Below are positions 2,668-55,500 of a stretch of DNA of 64,000 nt, piece by piece. Where the stretch lies: NCBI RefSeq assembly GCF_041381155.1, contig NC_091137.1, positions 25,713,351 to 25,777,350 on the forward strand, read 5' to 3'. Made by a program: the position numbers and the translations under genes. The stretch's first letter is position 1, and each line of letters starts with the position of its first letter. This DNA is from Argopecten irradians (lineage: Eukaryota; Mollusca; Bivalvia; Pectinida; Pectinidae). The notes under the pieces were generated by a model. It searched no databases. It was given only the letters and a program-made list of their open reading frames with translations, and was not told the origin of the DNA.

Positions 2668-3374
2668 TGTATATGTAATATTGGCATAGTAATACAAATA
2701 ATAAGATACATCCCAGTATATGTAATATTGGCATAGTCATACAAATAATAAGATACATCCCAGTATATGTAATATTGGCATAGTAATACAAATAATAAGA
2801 TACATCCCAGTATATGTAATATTGGCATAGTCATACAAATAATAAGATACATCCCAGTATATGTAATATTGGCATAGTCATACAAATAATAAGATACATC
2901 CCAGTATATGTAATATTGGCATAGTAATACAAATAATAAGATACATCCCAGTATATGTAATATTGGCATAGTAATACAAATAATAAGATACATCCCAGTA
3001 TATGTAATATTGGCATAGTCATACAAATAATAAGATACATCCCAGTATATGTAATATTGGCATAGTAATACAAATAATAAGATACACCCCAGTATATGTA
3101 ATATTGGCATATTAATACAAATAATAAGATACATCCCAGTATATGTAATTTTGGCATAGTAATACAAATAATAAGATACATCCCAGTATATGTAATATTG
3201 GCATAGTAATACAAATAATAAGATACATCCCAGTATATGTAATATTGGCATAGTAATACAAATAATAAGATACATCCCAGTATATGTAATATTGGCATAG
3301 TAATACAAATAATAAGAAACATCCCAGTATATGTAATATTGGCATAGTAATACAAATAATAAGATACATCCCAG
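2668..3374. repeat. 47-bp minisatellite, about 15 copies
   Basis: Direct tandem copies of a 47-bp unit containing ATGTAATATTGGCATAGT, then AATAATAAGATACATCCCAG. Most differences are single bases: TAGTAATAC against TAGTCATAC, one ACACCCC for ACATCCC, and one AATTTTGG for AATATTGG. 47 is not a multiple of three, yet all three minus-strand frames lack stops across the unit, which creates an artefactual 307-codon minus-strand frame with a 47-residue period. I do not regard it as protein coding. Confidence 0.93.
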
Positions 3375-4023: not shown

Positions 4024-4815
4024 ACAGGTTCACAATTATACAAAATATTTTCATCAATACAGGTTAAAAGTTATACAAAATATTTTCATCAATATAGGTA
4101 ACAGTTATACAAAATATTTTCAGTAATATAGGTTAACAGTTATACAAAATATTTTCATCAATATAGGTCAACAGTTATACAAAATATTTTCATCAATATA
4201 GGTCAACAGTTATACAAAATATTTTCATCAATATAGGTCAACAGTTATACAAAATATTTTCATCAATATAGGTTAACAGTTATACAAAATATTTTCATCA
4301 ATATAGGTTAACAGTTATACAAAATATTTTCATCAATATAGGTTAACAGTTATACAAAATATTTTCATCAATATAGGTTAACAGTTATACAAAATATTTT
4401 CATCAATATAGGTTAACAGTTATACAAAATATTTTCATCAATATAGGTCAACAGTTATACAAAATATTTTCATCAATATAGGTCAACAGTTATACAAAAT
4501 ATTTTCATCAATATAGGTTAACAGTTATACAAAATATTTTCATCAATATAGGTTAACAGTTATACAAAATATTTTCATCAATATAGGTTAACAGTTATAC
4601 AAAATATTTTCATCAATATAGGTCAACAGTTATACAAAATATTTTCATCAATATAGGTCAACAGTTATACAAAATATTTTCATCAATATAGGTCAACAGT
4701 TATACAAAATATTTTCATCAATATAGGTCAACAGTTATACAAAATATTTTAATCAATATAGGTTAACAGTTATACAAAATATTTTCATCAATATAGGTTA
4801 ACAGTTATATAAGAT
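4024..4815. repeat. 35-bp minisatellite, about 22 copies
   Basis: Tandem copies of a 35-bp unit containing GGTTAACAGTTATACAAAAT and ATTTTCATCAATAT. Units fall into two types that differ at one base (GGTTAACAG or GGTCAACAG), and the types occur in runs, not alternately. The outermost units are the most diverged, as is usual when an array grows and homogenises from its centre. No coding frame. Confidence 0.93.
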
Positions 4816-7714: not shown

Positions 7715-10700
7715 CTGAAACAATAGGATAAGGGAACAATATTACTTATATTTCTGAGGGAAAATGAACAAATCGAATTTCATTTTTATAAAATAAAGTT
7801 ATGATGTTGATGCCTTGGTGTTGGAACAACACCGCTGGTATTTCGTTTTTTTAGTTTTCCTTGTATGCGCCTCAAAAGTATGGATATATTGAGCAACACG
7901 TAAGTAATGCGCGGGGATTGCGAAATAGGTATGGTCGCTCGAGACATTAACAATTTCAACACTCTTTATAATTACAGAAGTATGTTCCCGTTTCCCCCAC
8001 CAATCCCAGCATCCTTTATAATTACCAAAGCATACCCCTGTGTACCCCCACCAATCCTAGTATCCTTTACAATTACCAAAGTATGCCCCTGTGTACCCCC
8101 ACCAATCCCAGTATCCTTTATAATTACCAAAGTATGCCCCTGTGTACCCCCACCAATCCCAGTATCCTTTATAATTACCAAAGTATGCCCCTGTGTACCC
8201 CCACCAATCCCAGTATCCTTTATAATTACCAAAGTATGCCCCTGTGTACCCCCACCAATCCCAGCATCCTTTATAATTACCAAATATGCCCCTGTGTACC
8301 CCCACCAATCCCAGCATCCTTTATAATTACCAAAGTATGTACCCCACCCCAGATCCTTTATAATTACCAAAGTATGCCCTGTGTACCCCCACCAATCTCA
8401 GTATCCTTTATAATTACCAAAGTATGCCCCTGTGTACCCCCACCAATCCCAGCATCCTTTATAATTACCAAAGTATTCCCCTGTGTACCCCCACCAATCC
8501 CAGCATCCTTTATAATTACCAAAGTATGCCCCTGTGTACCCCCACCAATCCCAGTATCCTTTATAATTACCAAAGTATGCCCCTGTGTACCCCCACCAAT
8601 CCCAGCATCCTTTATAATTACCAAAGTATGCCCCTGTGTACCCCCACCAATCCCAGTATCCTTTATAATTACCAAAGTATGCCCCTGTGTACCCCCACCA
8701 ATCCCAGTATCCTTTATAATAACCAAAGTATACCCCTGTGTACCCCCACCAATCCCAGCACAGCATCCTTTATTATTACCAAAAGTATGCCCCTGTGTAC
8801 CCCCACCAATCCCAGCATCCTTTTTGATTACCAAAGTATGCCCCTGTGTACCCCCACCAATCCCAGCATCCTTTATAATTACCAAAGTATGCCCCTGTGT
8901 ACCCCCACCAATCCCAGTATCCTTTATAATTACCAAAGTATGCCCCTGTGTACCCCCACCAATCCCAGTATCCTTTATAATTACCAAAGTATCCCCTGTG
9001 TACCCCCACCAATCCAGTATCCTTTATAATTACCAAAGTATGCCCCTGTGTACCCCCACCAATCCCAGTATCCTTTATAATTACCAAAGTATGCCCCTGT
9101 GTACCCCCACCAATCCCAGTATCCTTTATAATTACCAAAGTATGCCCCTGTGTACCCCCACCAATCCCAGTATCCTTTATAATTACCAAAGTATGCCCCT
9201 GTGTACCCCCACCAATCCTAGTATCCTTTATAATTACCAAAGTATGCCCCTGTGTACCCCCACCAATCCCAGTATCCTTTATAATTACCAAAGTATGCCC
9301 CTGTGTACCCCCACCAATCCCAGTATCCTTTATAATTACCAAAGTATGCCCCTGTGTACCCCCACCAATCCCAGCATCCTTTATAATTACCAAAGTATGC
9401 CCCTGTGTACCCCCACCAATCCCAGTATCCTTTATAATTACCAAAGTATGCCCCTGTGTACCCCCACCAATCCCAGTATCCTTTATAATTACCAAAGTAT
9501 GCCCCTGTGTACCCTCACCAATCCCAGCATCCTTTATAATTACCAAAGTATGCCCCTGTGTACCCCTACCAATCTCAGTATCCTTTATAATTACCAAAGT
9601 ATGCCCCTGTGTACCCCACCAATCCTAGCATCCTTTATAATTACCAAAGTATTCCCCTGTGTACCCCCACCAATCCCAGCATCCTTTATAATTACCAAAG
9701 TATGCCCCTGTGTACCCCCACCAATCCCAGCATCCTTTATAATTACCAAAGTATGCCCCTGTGTACCCCCACCAATCCCAGCATCCTTTATAATTACCAA
9801 AGTATGCCCCTGTGTACCCCCACCAATCCCAGCATCCTTTATAATTACCAAAGTATGCCCCTGTGTACCCCCACCAATCCCAGCATCCTTTATAATTACC
9901 AAAGTATGCCCCTGTGTACCCCTACCAATCCCAGTATCCTTTATAATTACCAAAGTATGCCCCTGTGTACCCCCTACCAATCCCAGCATCCTTTATAATT
10001 ACCAAAGTATGCCCCTGTGTACCCCCACCAATCCCAGCATCCTTTATAATTACCAAAGTACCCCTGTGTACCCCCACCAATCCCAATATCCTTTATAATT
10101 ACCAAAGTATGCCCCTGTGCACCCCCACCAATCCCAGTATCCTTTATAATTACCAAAGTTTGCCTCTGTGTACCCCCACCAATCCCAGTATCCTTTATAA
10201 TTACCAAAGTATGCCCCTGTGTACCCCCACCAATCCTAGTATCCTTTATAATTACCAAAGTATGCCCCTGTGTACCCCCACCAATCCCAGCATCCTTTAT
10301 TATTACCAAAGTATGCCCCTGTGTACCCCCACCAATCCCAGCATCCTTTATAATTACCAAAGTATGCCCCTGTGTACCCCCACCAATCCCAGTATCCTTT
10401 ATAATTACCAAAGTATGCCCCTGTGTACCCCCACCAATCCCAGTATCCTTTATAATTACCAAAATATGCCCCTGTGTACCCCCACCAATCCCAGCATCCT
10501 TTATAATTACCAAAGTATGCCCCTGTGTACCCCCACCAATCCCAGCATCCTTTATAATTACCAAAGTATGCCCCTGTGTACCCCCACCAATCCCAGCATC
10601 CTTTATAATTACCAAAGTATGCCCCTGTGTACCCCCACCAATCCCAGCATCCTTTATAATTACCAAAGTATGCCCCTGTGTACCCCCACCAATCCTAGTA

Positions 10701-13700
10701 TCCTTTATAATTACCAAAGTATGCCCCTGTGTACCCCCACCAATCCCAGCATCCTTTATAATTACCAAAGTATGCCCCTGTGTACCCCCACCAATCCCAG
10801 CATCCTTTATAATTACCAAAGTATGCCCCTGTGTACCCCCACCAATCCCAGCATCCTTTATAATTACCAAAGTATGCCCCTGTGTACCCCCACCAATCCC
10901 AGTATCCTTTATAATTACCAAAGTATGCCCCTGTGTACCCCCACCAATCCCAGCATCCTTTATAATTACCAAAGTATGCCCCTGTGTACCCCCACCAATC
11001 CAGCATCCTTTATAATTACCAAAGTATGCCCCTGTGTACCCCCACCAATCCAGTATCCTTTATAATTACCAAAGTATGCCCCTGTGTACCCCCACCAATC
11101 CCAGTATCCTTTATAATTACCAAAGTATGCCCCTGTGTACCCCCACCAATCCCAGTATCCTTTATAATTACCAAAGTATGCCCCTGTGTACCCCCACCAA
11201 TCCTAGTATCCTTTATAATTACCAAAGTATGCCCCTGTGTACCCCCACCAATCCCAGTATCCTTTATAATTACCAAAGTATACCCCTGTGTACCCCCACC
11301 AATCCCAGCATCCTTTATAATTACCAAAGTATGCCCCTGTGTACCCCCACCAATCCCAGTATCCTTTATAATTACCAAAGTATTGCCCCTGTGTACCCCC
11401 ACCAATCCTAGCATCCTTTATAATTACCAAAGTATGCCCCTGTGTACCCCCACCAATCCCAGCATCCTTTATAATTACCAAAGTATGCCCCTGTGTACCC
11501 TCACCAATCCCAGCATCCTTTATAATTACCAAAGTATGCCCCTGTGTACCCCACCAATCCAGTTATCCTTTATAATTACCAAAGTATGCCCCTGTGTACC
11601 CCCACCAATCCCAGCATCCTTTATAGTTACCAAAGTATGCCCCTGTGTACCCCCACCAATCCCAGTATCCTTTATAATTACCAAAGTATGCCCCTGTGTA
11701 CCCCCACCAATCCCAGCATCCTTTATAATTACCAAAGTATGCCCCTGTGTACCCCCACCAATCCCAGCATCCTTTATAATTACCAAAGTATGCCCCTGTG
11801 TACCCCACCAATCCCAGTCATCCTTTATAATTACCAAAGTATACCCCTGTGTACCCCCACCACTACCCAGCATCCTTTATAATTACCAAAGTATGACCCT
11901 GTGTACCCCAACCAATCCCAGCATACCATTTATAATTACCAAAGTATGCCCCTGTGTACCCCCACCAATCCCAGCATCCTTTATTAATTACCAAAGTATG
12001 CCCCTGTGTACCCCCCACCAATCCCAGCATCCTTTATAATTACCAAAGTATGCCCCTGTGTACCCCCAAAGTACCTTGTAATCCATGCCAGCTATCCTTT
12101 ATAATTACCAAAGTATGCCCCTGTGTACCCCCACCAATCCCAGCATCCTTTATAATTACCAAAGTATACCCCTGTGTACCCCCACCAATCCCCAGCATCC
12201 TTTATAATTACCAAAGTATGCCCCTGTGTACCCCCCACCAATCCCAGCATCCTTTATAATTACCAAAGTATGCCCCTGTGTACCCCCACCAATCCCAGTA
12301 TCCTTTATAATTACCAAGTATGCCCCTGTGTACCCCCCACCAATCCCAGTATCCTTTATAATTACCAATGTATGCCCTGTGTACTCCCCACCAATCCCAG
12401 CATCCTTTATAATTACCAAAGTATACCCCTGTGTACCCCCACCAATCCCAGTATCCTTTATAATTACCAAAGTATGCCCCTGTGTACCCCCACCAATCCC
12501 AGCCATCCTTTATAATTACCAAAGTATGCCCCTGTGTACCCCCACCAATCCTAGCATCCTTTATAATTACCAAAGTATGCCCCTGTGTACCCCCACCAAT
12601 CCTAGTAATCCTTTATAATTACCAAAGTACACCCCTGTGTACCCCCACCAATCCTAGTTATCCTTTATAATTACAGAAGTATGCCCCTGTGTACCCCCCA
12701 CCCAATCCCAGCATCCTTTATAATTACCAAAGTATGCCCCTGTGTACCCCACCAATCCAGCATCCCAAAGTATCCCCTGTGTACCCCCAACCAATCCCAG
12801 CATCCTTTTTATAATTACCAAAGTATACCCCTGTGTACCCCCAGACAATCCCTAGCATCCTTTATAATTACCAAAGTATGCCCCTGTGTACCCCCACCAA
12901 TCCTAGTATCCTTTATAATTACCAAAGTATGCCCCTGTGTACCCCCACCAATCCCAGTATCCTTTATAATTACCAAAGTATGCCCCTGTGTACCCCCACC
13001 AATCCTAGTATCCTTTATAATTACCAAAGTATGCCCCTGTGTACCCCCACCAATCCTAGTATCCTTTATAATTACCAAAGTATGCCCCTGTGTACCCCCA
13101 CCAATCCCAGTATCCTTTATAATTACCAAAAGTATGCCCCTGTGTACCCCCACCAATCCCAGCATCCTTTATAATTACCAAAGTATGCCCCTGTGTACCC
13201 CACAATCCCAGCATCCTTTATAATTACCAAAGTATGCCCTGTGTACCCCCACCAATCCCAGCATCCTTTATAATTACCAAAGTATGCCCCTGTGTACCCC
13301 ACCAATCCCAGCATCCTTTATTATTACCAAAAGTATGCCCCTGTGTACCCCCCCACCAATCCCAGCATCCTTTATAATTACCAAAGTATAACCCCCTGTG
13401 TACCCCCACCAATCCCAGCATCCTTTATAATTACCAAAGTATGCCCCTGTGTACCCCCCACCAATCCCAGCATCCTTTATAATTACCAAAGTATGCCCCT
13501 GTGTACCCCCACCAATCCCAGCATCCTTTATAATTACCAAAGTATGCCCCTGTGTACCCCACCAATCCCAGCATCCTTTATAATTACCAAAATATGCCCC
13601 TGTGTACCCCCACCAATCCAAGCATCCTTTATAATTACCAAAGTACCCCTGTGTACCCCCACCAATCCCAGCATCCTTTATAATTACCAAAGTATGCCCC

Positions 13701-16700
13701 TGTGTACCCCCACCAATCCCAGCATCCTTTATAATTACCAAAGTATGCCCCTGTGTACCCCCACCAATCCCAGTATCCTTTATAATTACCAAAGTATGCC
13801 CCTGTGTACCCCCACCAATCCCAGCATCCTTTATAATTACCAAAGTATGCCCCTGTGTACCCCCACCAATCCCAGCATCCTTTATTATTACCAAAGTATG
13901 CCCCTGTGTACCCCCACCAATCCCAGTATCCTTTATAATTACCAAAGTATGCCCCTGTGTACCCCCACCAATCCCAGTATCCTTTATAATTACCAAAGTA
14001 TGCCCTGTGTACCCCCACCAATCCCAGTATCCTTTATAATTACCAAAATATGCCCCCTGTGTACCCCCACCAATCCCAGCATCCTTTATAATTACCAAAA
14101 ATATGCCCCTGTGTACCCCCACCAATCCCAGCATCCTTTATAATTACCAAAGTATGCCCCTGTGTACCCCCACCAATCCCAGTATCCTTTATAATTACCA
14201 AAGTATGCCCCTGTGTACCCCCACCAATCCCAGCATCCTTTATAATTACCAAAGTATGCCCCTGTGTACCCCCACCAATCCCAGCATCCTTTATAATTAC
14301 CAAAATATGCCCCTGTGTACCCCCACCAATCCCAGCATCCTTTATAATTACCAAAGTATGCCCCTGTGTACCCCCACCAATCCCAGTATCCTTTATAATT
14401 ACCAAAGTATGCCCCTGTGTACCCCCACCAATCCCAGCATCCTTTATAATTACCAAAGTATGCCCCTGTGTACCCCCACCAATCCCAGTATCCTTTATAA
14501 TTACCAAAGTATGCCCCTGTGTACCCCCACCAATCCCAGCATCCTTTATAATTACCAAAGTATGCCCCTGTGTACCCCCACCAATCCTAGTATCCTTTAT
14601 AATTACCAAAGTATGCCCCTGTGTACCCCACCCAACCAATCCCAGCATCCTTTTATAATTACCAAAGTATGCCCCTGTGTACCCCACCAATCCCAGCATC
14701 CTTTATAATTACCAAAGTATGCCCCTGTGTACCCCCACCAATCCCAGCATCCTTTATAATTACCAAAGTATGCCCCTGTGTACCCCAACCAATCCCAGCA
14801 TCCTTTATAATTACCAAAGTATGCCCCTGTGTACCCCACCAATCCCAGCATCCTTTATAATTACCAAAGTATGCCCCTGTGTACCCCCACCAATCCCAGC
14901 ATCCTTTATAATTACCAAAGTATGCCCCTGTGTACCCCCACCAATCCCAGCATCCTTTATAATTACCAAAGTATGCCCCTGTGTACCCCCACCAATCCTA
15001 GTATCCTTTATAATTACCAAAGTATGCCCCTGTGTACCCCCACCAATCCCAGCATCCTTTATAATTACCAAAGTATGCCCCTGTGTACCCCCACCAATCC
15101 CAGCATCCTTTATAATTACCAAAGTATGCCCCTGTGTACCCCCACCAATCCCAGTATCCTTTATAATTACCAAAGTATGCCCCTGTGTACCCCCACCAAT
15201 CCCAGCATCCTTTATAATTACCAAAGTATGCCCCTGTGTACCCCCACCAATCCCAGTATCCTTTATAATTACCAAAGTATGCCCCTGTGTACCCCCACCA
15301 ATCCCAGCATCCTTTATAATTACCAAAGTATGCCCCTGTGTACCCCCACCAATCCCAGTATCCTTTATAATTACCAAAGTATGCCCCTGTGTACCCCACC
15401 AATCCCAGCATCCTTTATAATTACCAAAGTATGCCCCTGTGTACCCCCACCAATCCCAGTATCCTTTATAATTACCAAAGTATGCCCCTGTGTACCCCCA
15501 CCAATCCCAGCATCCTTTATAATTACCAAAGTATGCCCCTGTGTACCCCCACCAATCCCAGCATCCTTTATAATTACCAAAGTATGCCCCTGTGTACCCC
15601 CACCAATCCTAGTATCCTTTATAATAACCAAAGTATGCCCCTGTGTACCCCCACCAATCCCAGCATCCTTTATAATTACCAAAGTATGCCCCTGTGTACC
15701 CCCACCAATCTGAGCATCCTTTATAGTTACCAAAGTATGTCCCTGTGTACCCCCACCAATCCCAGCATCCTTTATAATTACCAAAGTATGCCCCTGTGTA
15801 CCCCCACCAATCCCAGCATCCTTTAGGGTTAGTTATGGTAGGGATAACTTGTGGGTACAGAATGATGATGTTGTTGAGTTCTGCCACATCGTTATAGCCG
15901 CCATGACGAACGTACACTTCACCAATAGTTTCCCTAGAACGAGGAACTGTAAAACTTATTGAAATATTTACATAAAAAACCAACTGTTTCGATGACATAT
16001 GAAAAACATTTCTCGCCATCATTCAATACCTAATTTATTGTGGATAGTGTATTTTGTAAATAAAATAACACTCAAAATGGTGCAGTCTCATCACATTAAA
16101 GATAACAGTTTTATCGACCACAATATTTCCATACTGTACAAAGTGACCCCTATTTTGACCGCTTTCTAATCAGATGTAAATACATATGCATTACAATTTC
16201 CTAAGTGAAATGCTTCCTAACACCTAGGGGCTTCGGTGGCTAGGGTTAAGATGTTCCGACATGGTACAACAAGCCCTCCTCCACCCGAGTTCGACCTAAG
16301 TCAAGTTGCCAGGTACTGATCGATGGCGCTGGGTTTTCACAAGGTTCTCCGGTTTTCCTCCATCTCCAACCTGGTAGTAATTAAATAGCCCCGTCTTTCT
16401 ATTGGAGTTAAACCAATTAATCAAATTGAACATAGAAACAATATAAACTACTTGTATATCATACATACCTTCCCATACCGCAGCCGTGCAGCGCAATATG
16501 AAATTTACATTCTGAAAATATATATACATTTTATAGCTTCTTAAAGTACAGTGCGGTGAACCCTATGTCATAATAATATCAAAATTATCTTGAAAACAAG
16601 AGATCTATGAGAGTTTTAAAAGATAGTTGCTAGTTGATATATAATTTGTTAAATATATAATGCAGTAAATCCCTAGTTGTGTTAGTTGAATTTGATGCCA

Positions 16701-19700
16701 CAGGGTTTACAAGCATTCTCAATCTCAAGCCGATACCTTTTGTGTTACATACGTAGATGGCAAGTGGTATGTGAATGCAGAGTAAACAATGCAATTGTAT
16801 AATAAGGTGAGTATTGCCATGGTGAGCAAATTATCATTCCTTCTGTGAACGATTTTCGTATCCATAGATGACAAACTTAACTATGTGGTATATAAAACAT
16901 TTTCTCTCGTACCTAAAAGTGCAAAACTGACTGGTCTAGGGCAATACACTCATGTCGCCTAAGACTGTATTGTATGGCTACCTATGCAATGAAGCCTCTA
17001 GCTCCAATATCGTAGCTCAAAAGACTTTTTGACAGAAAATTGTGTCGTCTTTAGAGCTACAATTGGTGCCTATTACTGCTAATGGAGCAAAGTAATGATT
17101 ATGCAAACCATTATAAAACGTTTGTTTGCATTTTTATTGTACTTGTATGATATCGCTTACCTTCTAGGCAATAAAACTGAACCACATAAAATATAAAATT
17201 CTCATCGAGGCATAATTTTTTTACATAATACATATGAAGGTCTTTGAGAAGGGAATTTATACGGCAAGTCCACAAATTGTGAATTTGACGTCTTGTGAGC
17301 GTTACGGTAGATATTAAGAATGGTAGTTATGTTTGTTTTGGACAAAAATCATATGTAAATGCATGTATACGCATAAAATAATTGGAAACCTACAAAAAAG
17401 TAAAGAAAACGATGCCCGAGTGATTTTCGGAGGCAGTGCTCCACTACGACACATCGGGACTAATTCGTACCCGGCCGAAAGGTATAGTTGGCCGGGTACG
17501 TATATTCGTTCTATGAAGCCTCGTGACGTCACAGCGTCATCAAAATCGCTATTTTATAGGTACAATTTTAACTCTTTTTTTCAGAAACGAGTCTGGATTA
17601 ACTTTAAAAGATACTAACAACGTGATTAGCATTGAAAATATCATCCAATTTTCATGTATGGAGAATTGACTTGAAGTCGCGATTTTTTCGAATTGATTTC
17701 AAAATTGCGTAAAATCATAGTAATAAAATTGCAATAAAACGTCGGGGTATGAGAGAAAAACCTCGGTAAGCCTCGGGTTTTACAACATTTTGTGACCCTC
17801 GTGTAGAATATCCCTATACTTCATATCCACATATGAAAGAGTCTTATATTATCTTCTGTATGGTGTTTAGTAACAACAATTTGACCAAACGAACGTGGTT
17901 TACCCGTATAATGTTGATGTCTCTGGGAACAGACTTCCGGTACATAGACATATCCGGTTACATCCATACTGTATGTAGAGGGAGGCGCCAGATGGAAAAA
18001 CTCTTTCTGATCAAACTTCCGCAACTGAAAATATAAACTCAAAATAAAACGCGTAAAATAAAACAAACGAGTGAAATGCTCAGTTGGGCCTGGTAAAAAC
18101 GTAAATCACAATTACAAAAATGCCAGGAAAATTTCATAACAAAAGAAATGTGTCTGGTATATTGGTATCACTATAGTTAACAAAACTGCCCGGCATATTT
18201 TTGGGGAAAAAACTGCCTGGCAAAAATGTATTGTTACAACGTAAAAGTGCCTGATATATATTAAAAGTGCAAAAACCCGAATCTTATACATATCTATCGT
18301 GAAATGTTACATCAAACATGTCATACTTACTGCATGGGACATGCGTCTGTATAAAAGGCCAATGAAGCGAAGCGCCGTGAAAATCGTCCCTCGTGTGAGT
18401 GTCATTAGTTATCAATCTCTGTCGTTTGTTTATTGTTTCAAAAGGTCAACATTGTTTCTGGTAACCTTAATAACATGTCAATAATTTATACTACTGATTG
18501 AAAAAAAAATCAGTGACAGTTTTCGTCCAATAAAAATGCCAGGCACTTTCACATTGTCCTTATGAATTGCTAGGCAGTTTTTTTTTTTGTCGAAAAAAAT
18601 GCCGGATACATTTTCATGGCCGCAATACATTTTTGCCAGGCAGTCTTTTTGTCCAAAAATATGCCGGACAGTTTTGTAAACTAGTAATATGTGGGACACA
18701 GTTTTTTGGTTATGATATTTGTCTGATATTTATGTAATTATGATACTCGTTTTTGCCAGGCCCATATCGGCCATCGTACGAAAGAGTTATAATATAAAAA
18801 CACACACTTTCAAAATGTCATTAAATATCCACAATCTTTTGTTTCTGATGTAAGAGTTAATTTCTTTTTCAAATGATAACTTTTGCACATTTTTATACCG
18901 CCCAGCAAACATCATCGCTAATCCTAGTTCTCATTTACTTCTATGACAGTCGTCACTCACTTAAACATAAGCATTCTTCTCTATGAAAATCTTACTCACA
19001 TTTCCTTCGATAGCGGAAGCATTCATTGGTTTCTGGAAAAGTGAAAGTATCAAAAACAATAGAAGGGAAAATAATGTTTATAGACAATAAAATGCATTCC
19101 CAGAGATTTAACTATGTATTACTCTGAAAAGCTATGATGTTAGACATACATGAGTAATATAAATACATTGTACATGTATATTGGAACTGAAACTTTAACA
19201 TAAATGAATAGCATCATAAGTTTACTTTTCTTTACTCCCAATACCGTATTGTCAGTATCTATTCAACTGAACAATACTGAAGTTGTGTATTTAACTGTAA
19301 TAGTCAATTTATGACTCAAACTGGTTTTGGATTTCTTGGCCAACAGAGCATGTCGTTATATGTCGTATTGTATCTGCTTTAGAAATGACCAATAGATGCT
19401 GGACCACTGACCTTGAGATGACCGCCATAGATGTGATTGAGAAGGTCGTAAGCGGCGTTATAGTTACAGTTATTAAGGTAACCAGTGGACGACGACAGGG
19501 TGCCGCACTGTCCTCCATAGTTTTCAGTCGGCTGTAAAGTGCAACTTATCAAATTATATATAAAAAATACTAACACTTAAGGATTAACTTGAATAGATTT
19601 TTTATGTTATGGAGATATAACACAAAAATCTTAGTGTACTCTAAATAAACCGCGAAGCGGTTTATGATGAGAGTACACTCAGATTTTTGTGTTATATCTC

Positions 19701-21318
19701 CATAACATAAAAAATCTATTCAAATTAATCCTTATAATTCAATTTACTAAAGATAATCTCTTCAACATTTAAAATTTATTTTGGGACTCTTTTGTCTATG
19801 AAATTATTACGCCGTCATCTCAGCCAATCAGAAGCGACGTTACAAACGGCGACGCCATTTTTTCCTTTATGGGCTGATAAAGTAAATTTTTAAGCCAATG
19901 AAAATGCTCGTAACAAGCAAAATTGAATTATACAGTTATAATGATGACTGATTATGTTTAAGTTCAGCATAGATTTCATTTTGATTCAAAATATTTAACT
20001 AAAGACCCATAAATGTTAAGAACGATAACCCTTTTTGCTCTGAATTTCTGAATCCTTCATACAATCTCATATATTTGACCACTTCAGATAATAACTCCAT
20101 GACCATATTTCAAGTTTTAGAAGTGTCCTTTATTTTTGAAAATGTAATGGTGAACTTACCATGCAGTGTTCCGCAGCCATATTGAAAACAGTCTTTATAT
20201 TTGATCGATTTGAAATGTAATGCCGATAAAAACGTTCAATGTTTTGACCATTTCCTGAAATAAAGATTCTAAAACATGAAAATCTGCACAATATTACAAG
20301 AGAATAAATGTACAATCTGAATTAGAAATTAGACATTTACTCTTTGTGAAATTCTTTAATAGTATAGGCCTATAATATATGATAATTTCTTATTTTTGAT
20401 ATTGTAGTTATACTTATTGAGACCAGAAGATATTTATCGTTCTGTTACAACTGACCAGGCTTGACCACACTGTCCGAAGTACCACTGAAGATGTAGACCT
20501 TGTCATCACGAAGGTTTGATGTCGTGTCTACGTTACCAAGGAAGCTGCCTGACGTCACCAAAAGCTCCAGTGACGACACAGAGGTCAGCGATGGTGTCAG
20601 CATACATGTCGACGCACCAGCTATGCTTCCTCCAGAGCAGGCAAATGGTACTGTTCAAGTGAATCAAAGATTAAAATACAAAAGCTGTATACCAATTTCA
20701 CTATTGGTATTAATACGGATATCAGAGCGATGTACTAGTCAGTGATTATACTAAGACGATCTACGTCGACTGTAACTAATAGCTCTTTGGTAATGCTGTG
20801 TCACAACAGAACTTGTAAATAAGTTCAATAATTTCGGTCTTAATTACAAATAAGACCAAATTAAAGTTGTTTCTTTTTCTACCACTTTAAAGTAAGAAAT
20901 AGTTATATGCATTGTTCACATTTCTTTAAGCTTACTGTAATTTCATACTTTCATTCAAAAAAAAAAAAAAAATTTTGGAAGTGTACATGAGAAAGAAAAG
21001 ATGATGGTTTTAAAAAGTCAATCTGATTAAAATACAGATCCTTATTGCCAGTCCGTTCAAAAGAGGCTCATATTATTTATAAGGCTTAACGTCCTTGTTC
21101 TAGGAGAAAAATGTTTAGTTTGTAGTAAGGTGACGTAACTCTACCATGTTACATGTACCTCCGGCTATGATCCCTGCTCCCATTATTCGTTCCGAATTGA
21201 TCACGTGCATCTGTGTGGCCATGGCAGCTCCAGAGGAAATTCCAGAGACAGATATTGCGTTAGCGTCGACATTGTAGGTTTCTAATAAATAAACAGCAAT
21301 GAACAAAATATAAATCAT
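7650..21318 (-). CDS. Secreted poly(3-hydroxybutyrate) depolymerase-like esterase, complete gene, 9 exons
   Basis: Joined exons (minus strand): 21318-21159, 20650-20456, 20254-20160, 19531-19412, 19032-19000, 18024-17904, 16511-16469, 15933-15782, 7714-7650. They total 984 bases for 327 residues, with all GT/AG junctions and phases consistent. The protein starts with a hydrophobic signal peptide (about residues 1-19). It then carries the lipase box GISSG (26-30, nucleophile Ser28), SGTSD (Asp113) and AEHCMP (His148). This matches the order and spacing of the Ser-Asp-His triad of fungal-type extracellular PHB depolymerases. ALHGC (248-252) supplies the cysteine placed at the oxyanion hole in that family, and [11 protein letters not shown] is the aromatic substrate-binding segment. 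The expected role is hydrolysis of polyhydroxyalkanoate or a related ester outside the cell. The substrate is inferred from the family, not shown. The oddity is the last intron: it holds a 154-copy array made from exon 8's own end. Confidence 0.92.
7715..15781 (-). other. Intron 8 of the esterase gene, 8067 bp, almost entirely tandem array
   Basis: Donor GTAATT at 15781-15776 and acceptor TTTCAG ending at 7715. Only 249 bases (7715-7963) lie outside the array, so the intron before expansion was probably about 0.3 kb. All other introns of this gene, about 0.2-1.4 kb, lack such an array. Confidence 0.85.
7964..15825 (-). repeat. 51-bp minisatellite derived from the exon 8/intron 8 junction, about 154 copies
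   Basis: The plus strand repeats TATGCCCCTGTGTACCCCCA, CCAATCCCAG, then CATCCTTTATAATTACCAAA and G. On the gene's strand each unit reads AAAGGATGCTGGGATTGG, TGGGGGTACACAGGGGCATA, then CTTTGGTAATTAT. That is the code for [14 protein letters not shown] followed by the splice donor G|GTAATT. The rightmost unit (15782-15825) is exon 8 itself. Common variants are GGATGC/GGATAC (Cys to Tyr codon) and TGG/TAG (Trp codon to stop). Frame-shifting indels and odd-length units cluster at about 11.8-13.45 kb. Four of six frames are free of stops in the consensus, so long open frames appear on both strands (up to 671 codons on the plus strand); these are by-products. Unit length equals 17 codons. Confidence 0.97.
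15782..15933 (-). CDS. PHB-depolymerase-like gene, exon 8 (CWDWWGY segment; seed of the array)
   Basis: The acceptor CTCGTTCTAG|G is chosen over the nearby TTTTACAG, because only it completes the split Arg codon from exon 7 without an immediate stop. The exon encodes [20 protein letters not shown], then NIIILYPQ and [16 protein letters not shown], and ends in phase 1 at G|GTAATT. Its last 44 bases form the first unit of the 51-bp array. If the donor is skipped, the frame stays open through three more units and stops at TAG in 15611-15609. Confidence 0.92.
15934..16468 (-). other. Intron 7 of the esterase gene, carrying a SINE
   Basis: Donor AG|GTATGT and acceptor TTCTAG|G. The SINE at 16225-16428 fills much of it and ends about 40 bases from exon 7. 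Confidence 0.75.
16225..16428 (+). mobile_element. tRNA-derived SINE, copy in intron 7
   Basis: The head GGGCTTCGGTGGCTAGGGTT resembles a tRNA A box (GTGGCTAGGG) and GAGTTCGACC a B box, at tRNA-like spacing. The body GTTGCCAGGTACTGATCG and GGTTTTCCTCCATCTCC matches the SINE at 24905-25110. The tail is decayed (CTATTGGAGTTAAACC). It is antisense to the host gene. Confidence 0.65.
16469..16511 (-). CDS. PHB-depolymerase-like gene, exon 7 (HGC motif)
   Basis: The acceptor is TATATTTTCAG|AA and the donor is GGAAG|GTATGT. The exon encodes [14 protein letters not shown], with split codons at both ends (Glu242, Arg256). LHGC is a signature of this esterase family; its cysteine forms part of the oxyanion hole in the crystallised fungal enzyme. 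At 43 bp this is one of the gene's micro-exons. Confidence 0.88.
16895..16990 (+). repeat. Dispersed relative of the 65-bp satellite unit, in intron 6
   Basis: Contains TCTCGTACC, then ACTGGTCTAGGGCAATACAC and TCATGTCGCC, close to one unit of the array at 48350-49140. Its right flank (GTATGGCTACCTATGCAATG) matches the flank of the third copy at 58270-58372 on the other strand, so these two are copies of a longer dispersed element. Confidence 0.7.
17467..17499. other. 10-bp-stem GC-rich hairpin
   Basis: GTACCCGGCC and GGCCGGGTAC are perfect inverted arms around 13 bases. GC-rich against an AT-rich background, within intron 6 of the esterase gene. Possibly the centre of a decayed mobile element; no flanking inverted ends were identified. 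Confidence 0.5.
17904..18024 (-). CDS. PHB-depolymerase-like gene, exon 6
   Basis: The acceptor is TTATATTTTCAG|TTG and the donor is ACGG|GTAAAC (phase 1). The exon encodes [10 protein letters not shown] and [16 protein letters not shown]. FDQxEF and the GYVYVPxxC strand are typical of this family and directly precede the HGC exon. 121 bp. Confidence 0.92.
18086..18763. mobile_element. Foldback element with arms of about 180 bp, in intron 5
   Basis: The left arm starts GGGCCTGGTAAAAACG; the right arm ends CGTTTTTGCCAGGCCC. The arms match over roughly 180 bases with gaps, for example ACAAAACTGCCCGGCATATT against the reverse complement of AATATGCCGGACAGTTTTGT. Within each arm, short CCAGGCA/GCCGGACA-like motifs recur every 30-50 bases. 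No clear target-site duplication and no ORF. The long internally repetitive arms resemble foldback transposons. Confidence 0.6.
19000..19032 (-). CDS. PHB-depolymerase-like gene, exon 5 (33-bp micro-exon)
   Basis: The acceptor is CTTTTCCAG|AAA and the donor is GGAAAT|GTGAGT, phase 0 on both sides. Encodes [11 protein letters not shown]. It joins HLK of exon 4 to LRKFDQ of exon 6, where the family has a short variable loop. Consistent phase and strong splice sites support it; the sequence is too short for homology on its own. Confidence 0.75.
19412..19531 (-). CDS. PHB-depolymerase-like gene, exon 4
   Basis: The acceptor is CACTTTACAG|CCG and the donor is CTCAAG|GTCAGT, phase 0 on both sides. 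Encodes [28 protein letters not shown] and GHLK. P-T after the catalytic-His exon and CNYxAAYxLLxHIY are family hallmarks, with cysteines likely to form disulphides in a secreted enzyme. Reading past the donor meets a stop at 19378. Confidence 0.92.
19579..19733. mobile_element. 155-nt palindromic hairpin element in intron 3
   Basis: Arms of 64 bp starting AAGGATTAACTTGAATAGAT pair with two mismatches. The loop contains a nested palindrome, TAAACCGC-GAA-GCGGTTTA. It begins only 47 bases from the exon 4 acceptor. It is probably part of a MITE: shortly downstream there is an AGCCAATCAGAA box and an inverted TATAATTCAATTT pair, 19733-19747 and about 19921-19936. Confidence 0.75.
20160..20254 (-). 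CDS. PHB-depolymerase-like gene, exon 3 (catalytic His)
   Basis: The acceptor is TTTATTTCAG|GA and the donor is TGCATG|GTAAGT. Encodes [13 protein letters not shown], then [10 protein letters not shown]. His148 of AEHCM aligns with the histidine of the triad in fungal-type PHB depolymerases. The first codon (Gly119) is split with exon 2; the last is complete. Confidence 0.93.
20456..20650 (-). CDS. PHB-depolymerase-like gene, exon 2 (catalytic Asp)
   Basis: The acceptor is CTTGAACAG|TA and the donor is CCTG|GTCAGT. Encodes [17 protein letters not shown] through [18 protein letters not shown]. Asp113 in SGTSD matches the triad aspartate. The cysteine pair after AGVPFAC is typical of the family. 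Both end codons are split in phase 1. Confidence 0.93.
21159..21318 (-). CDS. PHB-depolymerase-like gene, exon 1 (signal peptide and Ser nucleophile)
   Basis: ATG at 21318-21316 opens [20 protein letters not shown], a hydrophobic signal sequence, followed by [18 protein letters not shown] and GAGIIAG. It ends at GGAG|GTACAT (phase 1). An upstream in-frame TTG is not a start. A TTTATTTATTAG acceptor-like tract lies inside the signal region, so an alternative model would have an earlier first exon and this one starting at ETYNVDAN. I prefer the ATG because the signal peptide and a TATA-like box fit it. Confidence 0.85.
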
Positions 21319-21335
21319 GGGCGATAATCCGCACA

Positions 21336-21366
21336 ACTGAATGTTCCCATTATAACGATTTATACA
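21336..21366 (-). promoter_or_regulatory. Possible core promoter of the esterase gene
   Basis: On the minus strand GTGTATAAATCG (TATAAAT at 21363-21357) is followed about 26 bases later by TCAGTT, an initiator-like sequence, and then by the ATG at 21318. The spacing is a little short for a TATA/Inr pair, and the 5' UTR would be only about 20 bases. Suggestive, not proven. Confidence 0.3.
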
Positions 21367-21889
21367 CCCTGGTTACGGTTAGGTGTGTAAGAATGCAAAC
21401 TTGACACATCCAATGTTTGTTTGCATGAGTTTATAAATATTGTGAGTAGTCTTAAATCATAGTTAAATGCTACTAGTATAAGTCAATTTTGATCAAATTA
21501 ATGTATCATGTTTTGCATGTATCTAGGGATGTATTGCATTGGAATATGGCCGAACAAAGTTAAAGCACTATACTTAATTAAGTTGTCTCTGTAACCATTT
21601 CCGTATGGATATCTGTGAAGACGCGCGATATAAACTTAACTGTAAGATATGTTACCTACCAAGTCGCGGATCTGTTGCCTGCAGAATTCTAAAAAAGAGA
21701 GAAATTAGAATTAACACTTCCATATTGCCCACGGTTATCGGTAGACTCATTCTTATCTTCATAGTCACTAGAATTCTGTCACATAAGTGCTTATCTGTGT
21801 CAGTGTAGCTATATTATTAAAGAGCTCACTCCTACATGTGAATTGTATGTTATATAATGTATCTATGTAGAATAATGTATAGTTTAGTT

Positions 21890-45700: not shown

Positions 45701-48349
45701 ATCTGTCGACCAATTTCAAGATGACCTGTTTTAATTACCTGCCAGATAATGAATCTAACGTTATACGCGGTTGATGTGTGATACGTGTTTTAACAAACTA
45801 AGTTTCACGTAATTAACTAAACTATACCAAACTGGGATTTCATTAACAAAAAAATAGATAAATACAGCACTCGTTTGACCATTGAACAGGATGTCGAGGA
45901 ATTAGTGACCTAAGAGCAGGATACTAAAATATTCTCTCAGTACAACAATTAAATGTGTTTTTACCATTTTACCATTCATTAAAATCATTCTCTGGATATT
46001 TTCCATTTTGTATTTCAAAATCGAAATACAGAAAACAGTTTGGTGATTTCAACATATCAAGTTTAAATTTGAAAGGAAATTAGCGTATATTGAGAATTTA
46101 GGATACTAGTACGATAAAGATTCTACGTTTTGGAATGCACTATTTTTGAAATTCAGATGTCAGATAAAAATGGATATTGGTTAAAGCTCATCTTTGTTTT
46201 ATGAAGGTACACATTGCCGATTGTTAATATAAAACCACTTACATGTAACTATGATAAATATTTAAAAAGAAATATCCTAACATCCGAGCCTTTGAAAAGT
46301 GTTTTACCATCTTTAAAGTCTTCTGAGAAAATAATATGTGAAAAGATTATATCTTACCGCATGCTTGAAAATGGATCAACATGCCAAATACTTAAAGCAA
46401 ACCAAAAATATTTTGTACTATTACATGTACTGTCGTAATAACCACACCTGGACATTCACAACTGAAGACGAGTGAGTGCGACAGCAGATGTTAATATACC
46501 TTTACTTATTTAACGATATATAAAAGATAAATTGAGTAGCTCCCAACTTTTTTCCAAAACCCTCACTCAGCTGTGAGTTAGTCTTTCGAACTAACACACT
46601 CCTGGAATCTAGCACACACCCGGACTCGGCTATTTCTGTTAAACCAATCAGATTTGAGATGGACGGGACTTGTTTCTGATCACGCAGTCAGTTGCCAGGC
46701 GACGTAACAATTGGGCGGAACTAGTTTCCGATCACACCATCTCCGTTGACGTAATCAAATGACGTTAGTACTGAAACTGTTACCGAGCACGTCGTCATGT
46801 TTATCTTGTAAATGAGAGGTTTTTGATATATGTAATGAGTTCAGAGGGCAATACCTTTTATATGTACATGTACGTACATTTGTTGTGTACATTTTAGGCT
46901 ACCTTAAAGTCGTTAACAACAACACATGTAGAATCGAATAACGGTACAAAGTAAACTTTATGACATCGGTCTCTGTAAACCATCCGGAGACGAGTGAAAG
47001 TTTTCACTACACAATTTGCCTTGCCCATGGGAGGGAACTCGAGTTATGGTACTGATCACTCGATACTGACGCCGATATATCAATCTCATGTTGTCTGTTT
47101 TTCGTTAATGCAACCATCAACCCTAGACGGTACTCATCAGTTGTAATCTGTTGTATGATAATGTTAGCGCGGTTTGATAAAATAACTGGGTCCATTTTGT
47201 GTATGCAAATGTTTATTTTTTTTGTATATATATTTCTTTTCACTTTGATTTAATTTTTTAGCATAAAAGATATTTACAAATAAATAAAAAAAGACAAAAC
47301 ATAACTATTAAATGTATTATGACCACATAAACAACAATAAACACATTGTATAGCATGCTGATCCGGTATAGAAAAATAAAAGCAAAAGACTGATACATTC
47401 CAATGATTGAATTATTTGAAAACCTTTAATATTTTTTTCTTTGAGTTATGTATATAGTATGAACTTTTGACATTTTAATGTGTTCTGAAAAAATAGAACT
47501 TGTAAGGGGAGGTATCTCTAATTGCTTTTTATCAGCAGCTATACATGTATAGAAAAAATCTGTTACATATAACATATACACTACACAAACAAAAAGAGTT
47601 TTATTAATAGAAACCTATAACCAGTATCAACATATGAAGCACAAATGTATATGCAAAAGGTATTTCTTATGAAGAATCAGAAAATTATGAGGAAAGTGAG
47701 TTTAACGACAATAATTCTTTTTCCCAAAAATAGAATTGCCACTAGATCTAGTTCTATAATTTCATCAATTGTTGACAGTGAGTTTTAATCTCACTGCAAT
47801 CATGACATTTATGATAATTTTTGTTTCTACATACATATTTTTGTTTCTATCTTACATAAATTATATGTATGACATTTTTTTATTCTATCTTACATAAATT
47901 GTATGCATGATAATTTTAGTTTCTATCATACATAAATTGTATTTGTTGTAATTCCTTACTTCATGTTTTGTAAGTTATTATTTAGGGGGACATTATAAGA
48001 CGTTCTTTGGTTTTATTTTTTGGTTTTCAAGCTTTAAATGGTATTTTAATTAATGCCAGGAAAAATAAATTATAATGATCTAAATCAATGAATAAAGGGG
48101 ATATAAAACTGGCTTTTTAAATTTACGGTGTATATCTATAAACTTAATTTTATCCATGGCATCAAAGGTGTTTGGCTCGATTTGAATCGTGATGTGATAA
48201 CCGACTGTTGGTGGACTACAATTACATGTACATTGTTCTTATGGAAATTTCCAGTACTCACATACCAAATGATATCTAAAAGTGAATCAATTTTTCCGGC
48301 GACTTCACTTCGCGTTTTCAGGTTTAATGACTTTCTCTCATACCTACAC
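45701..48349. other. Gene-free stretch
   Basis: A 74-codon frame at 46214-46438 has no recognisable content. 46640-46760 contains a short diverged duplication (GTTTCTGATCACGCAGTC and GTTTCCGATCACACCATC). No exon called. Confidence 0.35.
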
Positions 48350-49140
48350 ATGTATTACTGGCTGGTTTAGGGCAACATAATTCTGTCACCTGAGGCTACT
48401 TTTCATACCTACACGTGTGATACTGGCTGGTCTAGGGCAATGCAATCATGTCGCCTGAAGCTACCTCTCAAACTTACACGTGTAATACTGGCTGGTCTAG
48501 GGCAATTCACTCGTGTCGCCTGAAGCTACCCTCATACCTACACGTGTAATACTGGCTGGTCTGGGGCAATACACTCATGTCGCCTGAAGCTATCTCTCAT
48601 GCCTACGAAATACAGCCATGTTGCCTGAAGCTACCTCTCATACATACACGTGTAATACTGACTGGTCTAGGGCAATACACTTATGCTGCCTGAAGCTACC
48701 TCTCATACCTACACGTGTAATTCTAGCTGGTCTAGGGCAATACACTCATGTCGCCTGAAGCTACCTCTCATACATACACGTGTAATACTGGAATACTGGT
48801 CTAGGGCAATACACTCATGTCGTTTGAAGCTACCTCTCATACCTCAACGTGTAAATCGGGCTGGTCTGGGGCAATACACTCATGTCGTCTGAAGCTATCT
48901 CTCATACCTACACGTGTAATTCTGGCTGGTCTGGGGCAATACACTCTTGTCGCCTGAAGCTACCTTTCATACATACACGTGTAATACTGAATGGTCTAGG
49001 GCAATACACTCATGTCGCCTGAAGCTACCTCTCATACCTAAACGTGTAATACTGGCTGGTCTAGGGGAATTCATTCGTGTCGCCTGAAGCTACCCTCATA
49101 CCTACACGTAAAATACTGGCTGGTCTAGGGCAATATACTC
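48350..49140 (+). repeat. 65-bp satellite, about 12 copies, 3' of the decarboxylase gene
   Basis: Unit: CTGGCTGGTCTAGGGCAATA, CACTCATGTCGCCTGAAGCT, then ACCTCTCATACCTACACGTG and TAATA. Copies are moderately diverged and some carry deletions (for example the short unit at 48600-48620). It ends about 250 bases beyond the decarboxylase stop codon, so part may fall in the 3' UTR. Dispersed single relatives occur at 16895-16990 and 58270-58372. Confidence 0.92.
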
Positions 49141-52500: not shown

Positions 52501-55500
52501 AGCACCCATCATTTTATGAGGGTTCCACGTCAAGGAGTCTGCTCTGAAAAAATAATATAGACATAATGAAGGCCATTCCAAAGTGTATGCTTGATTTAAC
52601 TAACGTCCTATCAACAGCCATGGTCATGTAAGGACTACCTCCCATGTTTGCGGTGTGTTGAGTGTATGAAGTATGAGGTGCGTGTTTAGTGATATATTCG
52701 TTTGGTGTCTTCTTGGAACTCTTGCGAAGTCTCAAGTGGCCTTTTCTAATCGCCGTTTGTCCGTTGTCGTGCGTCGTGTGTTCGTTAACAACTTACACTT
52801 TCGACTTCTTCTCCAAAACTGCTGACACAATTTCAATGTTTTGCACAAACCTTCTAAGGCATTATCAAAATTGTGAACAGGGGACTGTGGGAGCGGCCTA
52901 AAGAGTCAAATTGGTTAAAATTAAAAATAAAATCATATAGATTGTAAGGTCTCAATGCCCTCTACCACAAGTATGAATTTCATGGTTCTGGGGTTACAGA
53001 TTTTCCCCTGGGGAGGGGGTCAAATTTACTATATTTTACATAGGATAACTTATTTATGAGTAAAATATTTCCTCAATTTACATAAGAAATGATTCCAACT
53101 TGGTTAGAGTTATTCGTCTATATTTACATTCTGAGTGATTCGTCACTATATGAATCAACCAACTGACGAAAACAAACATTTGCCTATGAAAACACTATGA
53201 ATACACTATGAATAAAACGATTCTCGTAAAACAATCAGCTGATTTCATCACGCCAGTTTCATATCAATAAACAAATAGTCAACCACAGTATTTTGATGTA
53301 TAATCTCTAATGTGTTGTTTCTTGATATAGAATCAACAAAGGTTTACAATAATAAGTCAACCAAATCTTATTTTGACTATATTTCTTGTTTATCGTTTTT
53401 CATTTGAAAAAAAAGGTCGACTGGAAGGCGGAAGATTGAAAAAGCGACGCTGTGGAACGACTTTGTCATCCAGCTTTCCATTAATCTCGTTTCTTGTTGT
53501 TTATGGGTGTCATCACATTTAATATAATTTAATAACCTTTCATTAATTTTTATTTTCATAATAATCTTTCAATAATTTTTATTTTCATAAATTATTCTAA
53601 TGTAAATATATGGATTGAATATATTTTTCTAAATTCCATAGCGGCTATGCATAGCAGAAACTATCTACATATCTTCCGAAATTAGAAAAATACATTCAAT
53701 GCCTATGGGATAGCATTTTATCTTCATATTCATATAGTTTCTGGCTGATGGGACAAAGAGGCGGGGCCAAAAGGGGTAAAATTGCATATGGCTAAAATTA
53801 AAAAAAAACTCTTAACCACGCGCAGATAAGCTAGTACCAGATACTCGTACTCTTCAAAGATTGAAGGGTATCGAAGCCCTCTACAAAAACTGTAAATTTC
53901 ATTGCCTAGGTATCAGATTTTCCCCTTTGGAGGTGGTCAAATACTATACTTTATATAGGGAAAACACATTTATGAATATCATTTGCTCAATTCTCATAGG
54001 AAATGAGTCAAACATGGTTAGCATTATTGATCGGAGACAGCATTTTAACATCACATCAATATAGGTGCTGGCTGACACCCACGGGCCAGAGGGGCGGGGC
54101 CAAAAAAAGGCTGAAACTTCAAAAATCTTATTTTAAATTCGAAAGGTCTTAAGGCCCTCTCCAAAATTGTGAATTTCGGGGGTCTCAGATTTTCACCTGA
54201 GAATGCGGTAAAATGTTCTATAGTTTATACAAGGAAAACACATTTATGAGCATTATTTGCTCAAAATTCATTTTAGAACTTTAAGAGGTGTAATGGAATC
54301 AAATACTCTCCACACAAAATGTAGATTGAAAGGTTAAATTGATGTAATCACTTACTGACTTTAAGAGCCTAATGGTCCCAATATTGAATCCAAACTCAGG
54401 TGATTATTAATGTCCATGGGCCTCTTGTTATAGTGCTATATTACTGAAGCAACACACCCTATCCGGTGACATTATACTGACGAATCAGTCGTCCCACTCA
54501 TTTAAATGAATGTTTATTACTTCTACAAATATACTTCAAAAGGGACTGGCTTCACCCAGCATAACAGCAACACTGACATGAATTAGTCATTTCTGATAAT
54601 AACAAAGAGAGTGTAACTTTACTATGGAGCTGTAAAGAAATAAAAATATTACCCTGCCTATATAACTAATCGAAGGTATTTTGAATTTATTCAAAACTTT
54701 AATATTGTACCTTTCAACACCAGACATAAGTGTTTTATGTTTCTTTGACAACAGAACTGCACCACCCCAAGCTGCATCAACGTGCATCCAAAGTTTGTAT
54801 TTTTCACAAATATCAGCTACTTCGTTTAGGGGATCAAACGCTCCTATGACAGTGGTTCCAGAGGTGGCAACAACGCATAATGGTTCCTCGCCCTTGAAAA
54901 AGTTAGAATTTGCATTGAGATGATGACATTTTATTTTTCGAGCAGTTAAATCATACAAATCATACGTAAGTGTCCATTCAATACCTTAGATTTTAGTGTT
55001 TGGATTTTCTGCTCTAGGTCTGTTGTAGACATCCTGCCTTTAGAGTCACATTTCACGAGGACGACATTTTTCATTCCGAAGCCAAGAAACGCTGCTCCTT
55101 TCTTAACACTAAAGTGTGCCTGTAATGAAATGTAATGATGAGTGGCAATACGTATATACATATCCACGAGTTCACATTAGTAATGGTAAAGCCATTAAGA
55201 CGGAACATCATCTTGAGTACACAAATGTAATGATTCTTAAAACTTTACACTTTGCAAAGGATAATATATTTTTTGTTGTGTGTGTATGTGATGCATGGTG
55301 GTAATTGTGTGTGTGAGTGTGTGTGAACTAACATGTAGTTAGTTTTCGGAGGCTGTGGTATGGCGGCGTGTGGATGGCGTGTGGTATGTATTGGGAGGCT
55401 GCGGTATGGCTGTGTGTGAATGTTATGTGGTATGTTTTCGGAGGCTGCAATATGACGATGTGTGGATGTCATGTGGTAAGGTTTGGGAGGCTGTGGTATG

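Follow-up and report, generated by a model that had tools for sequence, protein, structure and literature searches.

An intronic 51-bp minisatellite derived from an exon-intron junction of a predicted depolymerase gene in the bay scallop Argopecten irradians

The genome of the bay scallop Argopecten irradians contains, within a gene predicted from its sequence to encode a type 2 polyhydroxyalkanoate (PHA) depolymerase, a polyester-digesting enzyme, a 51-bp minisatellite of 154 units whose repeat unit spans the gene's own boundary between exon 9 and intron 9. The window analysed is a stretch of 64,000 nucleotides (nt) from the assembly GCF_041381155.1 (contig NC_091137.1, positions 25,713,351 to 25,777,350 of the forward strand), and all positions given here are counted from its first letter. 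We consider it likely that the array is a giant intronic minisatellite of the kind called "mirage" in amphioxus, tolerated as probably harmless intron DNA because its first copy retains the exon end and the splice donor.

Structure and identity of the host gene

The host gene lies on the minus strand, and the joining of its 10 coding exons produces an open coding sequence of 1050 nt, encoding 349 amino acids (aa) without an internal stop. The gene therefore still looks intact across the array, as had been claimed in an earlier note on this DNA. That note had also placed the start of the array inside exon 8 and had proposed a 65-bp terminal exon; the array does begin inside an exon, but this is exon 9 of 10, since a 43-nt exon 8 lies upstream of it, while the terminal exon was recovered at the proposed place and joins exon 9 in the right phase. 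The parts of the gene are as follows; the vertical bar marks a splice site.

21762-21660, 21281-21159, 20650-20456, 20254-20160, 19531-19412, 19032-19000 and 18024-17904, minus strand: exons 1-7 (span 17904..21762)
16511-16469, minus strand: exon 8, 43 nt
15933-15782, minus strand: exon 9, 152 nt, with acceptor TTCTAG and donor TTG|GTAATT; its final 44 nt also form the exon-derived portion of unit 1
7715..15781, minus strand: intron 9, 8067 nt counted from the first donor
7714-7650, minus strand: exon 10, the terminal coding exon, 65 nt including the stop, with acceptor CCTATTGTTTCAG, rated good

The 349-aa product scores 323.9 bits, above the cut-off of 280, with NF050059.1, the NCBIfam model of type 2 extracellular short-chain-length PHA depolymerases, and it aligns over residues 34-339 with the solved poly(3-hydroxybutyrate) (PHB) depolymerase 2d80 (E 2.6e-42). 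No Pfam family was matched at E<=0.01. In the alignment to 2d80, serine, aspartate and histidine fall in the motifs GISSG, SGTSDS and AAEHCMP, which we take to be the catalytic triad, and the tryptophan of CWDW presumably lines the substrate crevice. A placement of the catalytic histidine in exon 8 was dropped, as the triad residues, by the 2d80 numbering, align to exons 2-4.

By comparison with three scallop orthologues, exons 8-10 show the same degree of conservation as exons 2-7 at the level of the aligned proteins: 51-52 of 65 positions are shared in exons 8-9 and 17-18 of 21 in exon 10, next to 178-184 of 226 in exons 2-7. The three orthologous proteins read ...YTG[VTA]Y[YF]ATKHG... without inserts. 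Genome searches covered the whole A. irradians assembly of 845,758,899 bases, and a protein search of it returned no second copy (paralogue) of the gene; its eight matches are exons of the host gene itself (8 of the 10). The unmatched exons, 6 and 8, are both short, and exon 10 was matched with an E value of 6.5e-4.

The array and its single-locus status

The number of copies reported in the earlier note, 154 units of 51 bp, was borne out by cyclic alignment and by Tandem Repeats Finder, which reported a period of 51 with 7.4 + 146.3 copies. Of the span given there, 7964..15933, the end at 7964 stands, but 15933 is the first base of exon 9 and the array starts only at 15825.

7964..15825, minus strand: 51-bp minisatellite, 7.9 kb, 154 head-to-tail units by cyclic alignment, followed by a trailing TAAAG

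With the exon 9/intron 9 boundary defined by the gene model and the orthologous proteins, the unit is composed of 44 nt from the end of exon 9 (TAAAGGATGC...CATACTTTG) and 7 intron nt (GTAATTA), which agrees with the earlier proposal of a unit made from the gene's own exon/intron junction. Written across the splice site, the full unit is TAAAGGATGCTGGGATTGGTGGGGGTACACAGGGGCATACTTTG|GTAATTA, and the first unit contains the end of exon 9 (...TTTG|GTAATTA). The array makes up 97% of intron 9 and is followed by 249 nt of unique sequence before exon 10. The unit length of 51 nt corresponds to 17 x 3, and the consensus is open as 17 codons.

The units are highly alike, with a mean pairwise identity of 97.3% when aligned columns are compared without indels; 41 of the 154 are identical to the consensus, and 65 distinct unit types occur. 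It had been stated that every unit carries the real 5' splice site. This is true of nearly all of them, the donor GT being intact in 153 of 154, but not of all, as TTTGGTAAT is found in 145. For the concerted evolution sparing the cluster ends that would be expected of a mirage, the signs are mixed: the last unit differs from the consensus at 7 positions and unit 1 at none, and indels are most frequent in the middle. Identical units were clearly more frequent than in shuffled arrays at distances 3 and 4 only, among distances 1-6 (levels reached by 5 and 3 of 500 shuffles, respectively), and no higher-order repeat blocks were detected, the longest repeated run being 5 units, which was matched in 39 of 200 shuffles.

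The match between the array and the host junction is not due to chance, since all 132 near matches of the unit in the genome (at most 3 mismatches over 40 bp) lie inside the array and the reversed control gave 0. The 59 exact matches likewise fall inside it (59/59), and the intron 9 tail with exon 10 occurs a single time in the assembly. A dispersed (mobile) satellite was rejected as a candidate because every genome match of the 51-bp unit falls in the array.

Proposed origin by a single duplication

The two edges of the array share a short direct repeat.

15821..15825, minus strand: TAAAG in exon 9, the left edge of the founding duplication
7964..7968, minus strand: TAAAG in intron 9, the right edge of the founding duplication

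In the exon the sequence reads AACCC-TAAAG-GATGC, at the joints between units AATTA-TAAAG-GATGC, and where the array passes into the remaining intron AATTA-TAAAG-AGTG. Elsewhere in the gene, an identity of at least 5 nt at a spacing of 51 nt was found in 70 of 6195 position pairs (1.1%). The TAAAG match at both edges is thus suggestive, and not proof, of an origin in one duplication between two short direct repeats. The founding event would have been one 51-bp tandem duplication linking the TAAAG of exon 9 to that just inside intron 9, and the shared 5-mer points to slippage or microhomology repair as its route. Because the duplicated piece included the exon end and the donor, the first copy would keep the end of exon 9 with its donor GTAATT and all downstream copies would become intron; growth to 154 units would then have proceeded by unequal exchange and slippage. 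Splicing most likely runs from the first donor to exon 10, as the intact open reading frame suggests.

Selection and function of the copies

The view of the array as an amplified functional motif, put forward in the earlier note, proved overstated, given that the copies are not being maintained. The reading frame is broken in 41 of 154 units, whose length is no multiple of 3, and TAG replaces TGG in 16; 94 units are free both of indels and of a stop at that tryptophan codon. The distinct substitutions number 33; synonymous ones account for 7, where 6.9 would be expected, and stop-creating ones for 6, where 3.5 would be expected. Once two hot columns are set aside, 29 variant types remain, of which 6 fall in the nine donor columns; these columns are no better preserved than others (permutation P 0.76), and although the GT columns are without substitutions, the same is true of two random columns 24% of the time. 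To judge from these counts, the variants of the array look neutral, with no sign of selective maintenance of the copies. Stops, frameshifts, neutral variants and unconstrained donor columns together lead to the classification as an intronic minisatellite, while a coding repeat (coding variable number tandem repeat) was rejected because frameshifts and stops disrupt the reading frame and the spectrum of variants is neutral.

Weighing the alternatives

Use of the first donor is inferred from the intact reading frame, from the equal conservation of exons 2-7 and 8-10, and from the amphioxus precedents, for which normal splicing was reported. Several observations weigh against an array that is simply spliced out from that donor. 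In a simple duplex calculation of U1 pairing, the exon 9 donor pairs weakly (-5.1 kcal/mol, the second weakest of nine, which range from -4.7 to -8.8), and two other GTs within the unit pair better, TTG|GTGGGG at -7.8 and GGG|GTACAC at -5.3; either of these, if used in unit 1, breaks the frame. The sole A. irradians protein recovered, annotated as "poly(3-hydroxybutyrate) depolymerase-like isoform X2" (P0004), is identical to the gene model over its first 264 aa and omits exons 8-10, and so stops before the array. Finally, indels, which are densest in the middle of the array, affect 26 of the 42 units numbered 43-84 (about 13680-11523) as opposed to 20 of 112 elsewhere, an excess contrary to the usual decay of the ends, which may reflect an old core or assembly errors.

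The isoform bears directly on the proposal that the array crippled the 3' end of the gene, so that transcripts stop earlier, only the truncated X2 is made and the array sits in dead DNA. The annotated X2 does terminate in an exon that starts at 16398, skipping exons 8-10, and a recent loss would leave no trace in the sequence yet. Nevertheless, exons 8-10 have an open frame and workable splice sites, their conservation equals that of exons 2-7, and the very name X2 implies another isoform, for which reasons we hold this proposal to be unlikely. Isoform X1 did not appear among the 120 top-ranking listed proteins with lengths of about 174-554 aa, nor among those of about 489-1556 aa, where 7997 candidates were scored. 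By its translation, the terminal exon of X2 is placed in intron 8, from 16398 downwards on the minus strand.

A different proposal is that the array is an expressed protein repeat, in which donors 2-4 or read-through would yield enzymes with 1-3 extra 17-residue modules near the C-terminus. When 153 donors were joined in silico to exon 10, only donors 1-4 gave open products, of 349, 366, 383 and 400 aa. The normal protein, that of the gene model, results from donor 1 (after 15782). With donors 2-4, each added unit contributes 17 open codons, so that exon 10 is still reached in frame. Two stretches are of relevance here.

15629..15781, minus strand: alternative-donor stretch, running from the last bases of unit 1 into unit 4; the donors after 15731, 15680 and 15629 keep the frame open to exon 10
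15571..15621, minus strand: unit 5, in which TGG is changed to TAG at 15611-15609, the first in-frame stop within the array

By computation, occasional use of donors 2-4 would add 17, 34 or 51 residues in frame, whereas donor 5 and those beyond would give a premature stop at the TAG of unit 5. Units 1-4 are without indels and without changes of tryptophan codons to stops, which agrees with expression. The TAG in 16 of 154 units, the broken frame in 41 and the neutral variant spectrum speak against it, as do the absence of the insert from the three scallop orthologues and the fact that one open reading frame of the array matched no protein at E<=0.001 among proteins of similar length, where scoring covered the 7998 candidates with the most words in common. 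An expressed repeat is, in our judgement, very unlikely. In its narrower form, exon 9 would end at donor 1, 2, 3 or 4, producing a ladder of depolymerases with 0-3 extra modules and the stop of unit 5 as its upper limit; to this ladder we likewise assign a very small chance. If it were true, turnover of the array would alter the ladder between individuals.

The array could also act as a regulator of splicing, with its G-runs and decoy donors binding U1 and hnRNP-type proteins and thereby adjusting how often exon 9 or the early terminal exon is used. The retention of GT in 153 of 154 units is in line with such a role, as are the G-runs throughout the array, in which 152 two-tier G-quadruplex-like (G4-like) motifs, though only 4 strict ones, were counted and the G4Hunter mean is 1.0. 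The donor columns are nonetheless unconstrained, the predicted RNA fold of exon 9 with four units is unremarkable (z -0.86, with 19 of 100 shuffles folding as well), and the consensus unit lacks the AG|GT of recursive splicing, a mechanism that was itself rejected, as a single AGGT occurs in the whole array. Regulation by the array is therefore quite unlikely. As for the assembly, the real copy number could be far smaller or the array misplaced, and its length, the indel-rich units 43-84 and the indels located in the G5 run in 19 of the 46 units with indels, as homopolymer errors would give, are compatible with this. Some of the indels may indeed be sequencing or assembly errors, and the exact count of copies may be off, but 65 distinct unit types, a unique flank and the confinement of the unit to one locus make an artefact very unlikely. 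The reading that we prefer thus remains that of an intronic minisatellite spliced out from the first donor.

Relation to known systems

Minisatellites that span exon-intron boundaries, named "mirages", have been described in the amphioxus genes Adh3, the globins BflGb6 and BflGb9, and TnC, with similar repeats in PGBD5, and they were reported not to disturb normal splicing (PMC3087553, PMC3902484). The scallop array shares with them the tandem units of an exon end and the adjoining intron, many with a splice signal, in a gene that is intact. It differs in its mollusc host, in a unit of exactly 17 open codons and in copy number, the two amphioxus BflGb6 haplotypes having 6 and 3 units (PMC3087553) in contrast to 154. 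Therefore, the statement in the earlier note that no case exactly like this had been described needs to be narrowed: the class is known, while neither this copy number nor a mollusc case was found in the literature searched.

In human segmental-duplication genes, minisatellite-size repeats likewise lie at exon-intron borders and alter gene structure; there, internal tandem repeats average 30-bp units x 4 and are linked to novel introns (PMC2812944), whereas our model of the scallop gene has no new intron. Intron gain of the Rogers type, as in potato RdRp, also starts from a tandem duplication across an exon-intron boundary (PMC4974935), but it needs an AGGT that makes new 5' and 3' splice sites, and the scallop unit has no AGGT and creates no new intron in the model. 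Another minisatellite in a mollusc intron is that of intron 3 of the abalone TSSK1-like gene, with a 27-bp unit and variable length; in the excerpts of that report it is not described as derived from a junction (PMC6905558), unlike the scallop unit. The excerpts of PMC3039753 and PMC7090048 contained no further junction-derived case. The open-licence literature searched yielded no mollusc case with a unit taken from the junction of its own gene, and no array approaching 150 copies, which is weak evidence of absence.

The array is thus an extreme and clean example of a known, little-studied kind of repeat, unusual in its scale, its mollusc host and its in-frame unit, and it places boundary-spanning minisatellites in a mollusc. 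It represents a natural test of the spliceosome's choice among about 150 near-identical consecutive donors that face a single acceptor, and it illustrates how a splice junction may come to carry an 8-kb repeat without loss of the gene, given that expansion is automatically intronic when the duplicated piece carries the donor.

Other features of the window

Further repeats were observed in and around the host gene. Intron 4 contains an inverted repeat at 19578-19734 with 65-nt arms, 97% complementary and 27 nt apart, that folds back in the manner of a miniature inverted-repeat transposable element, and intron 6 holds, at 18085-18764, nested and more diverged inverted repeats with arms 76-89% complementary. 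Just downstream of the gene lie two minisatellites, at 2669-3374 (47 bp x 15.0) and 4026-4809 (35 bp x 22.4), with 97% matches each. A 65-bp minisatellite at 48335-49140 contrasts with the single-locus 51-bp array: two of its units give at least 90 matches spread over many contigs, with 40 of 1351 candidates scored, and it resembles the core of a mobile element that is dispersed in the genome. An exact 18-bp piece of its unit occurs at 16931-16948, in intron 7 of the host gene. Elsewhere in the window, a likely exon of a pyridoxal-dependent decarboxylase was identified on the minus strand at 54587-54982 (PF00282, E 6.6e-25).

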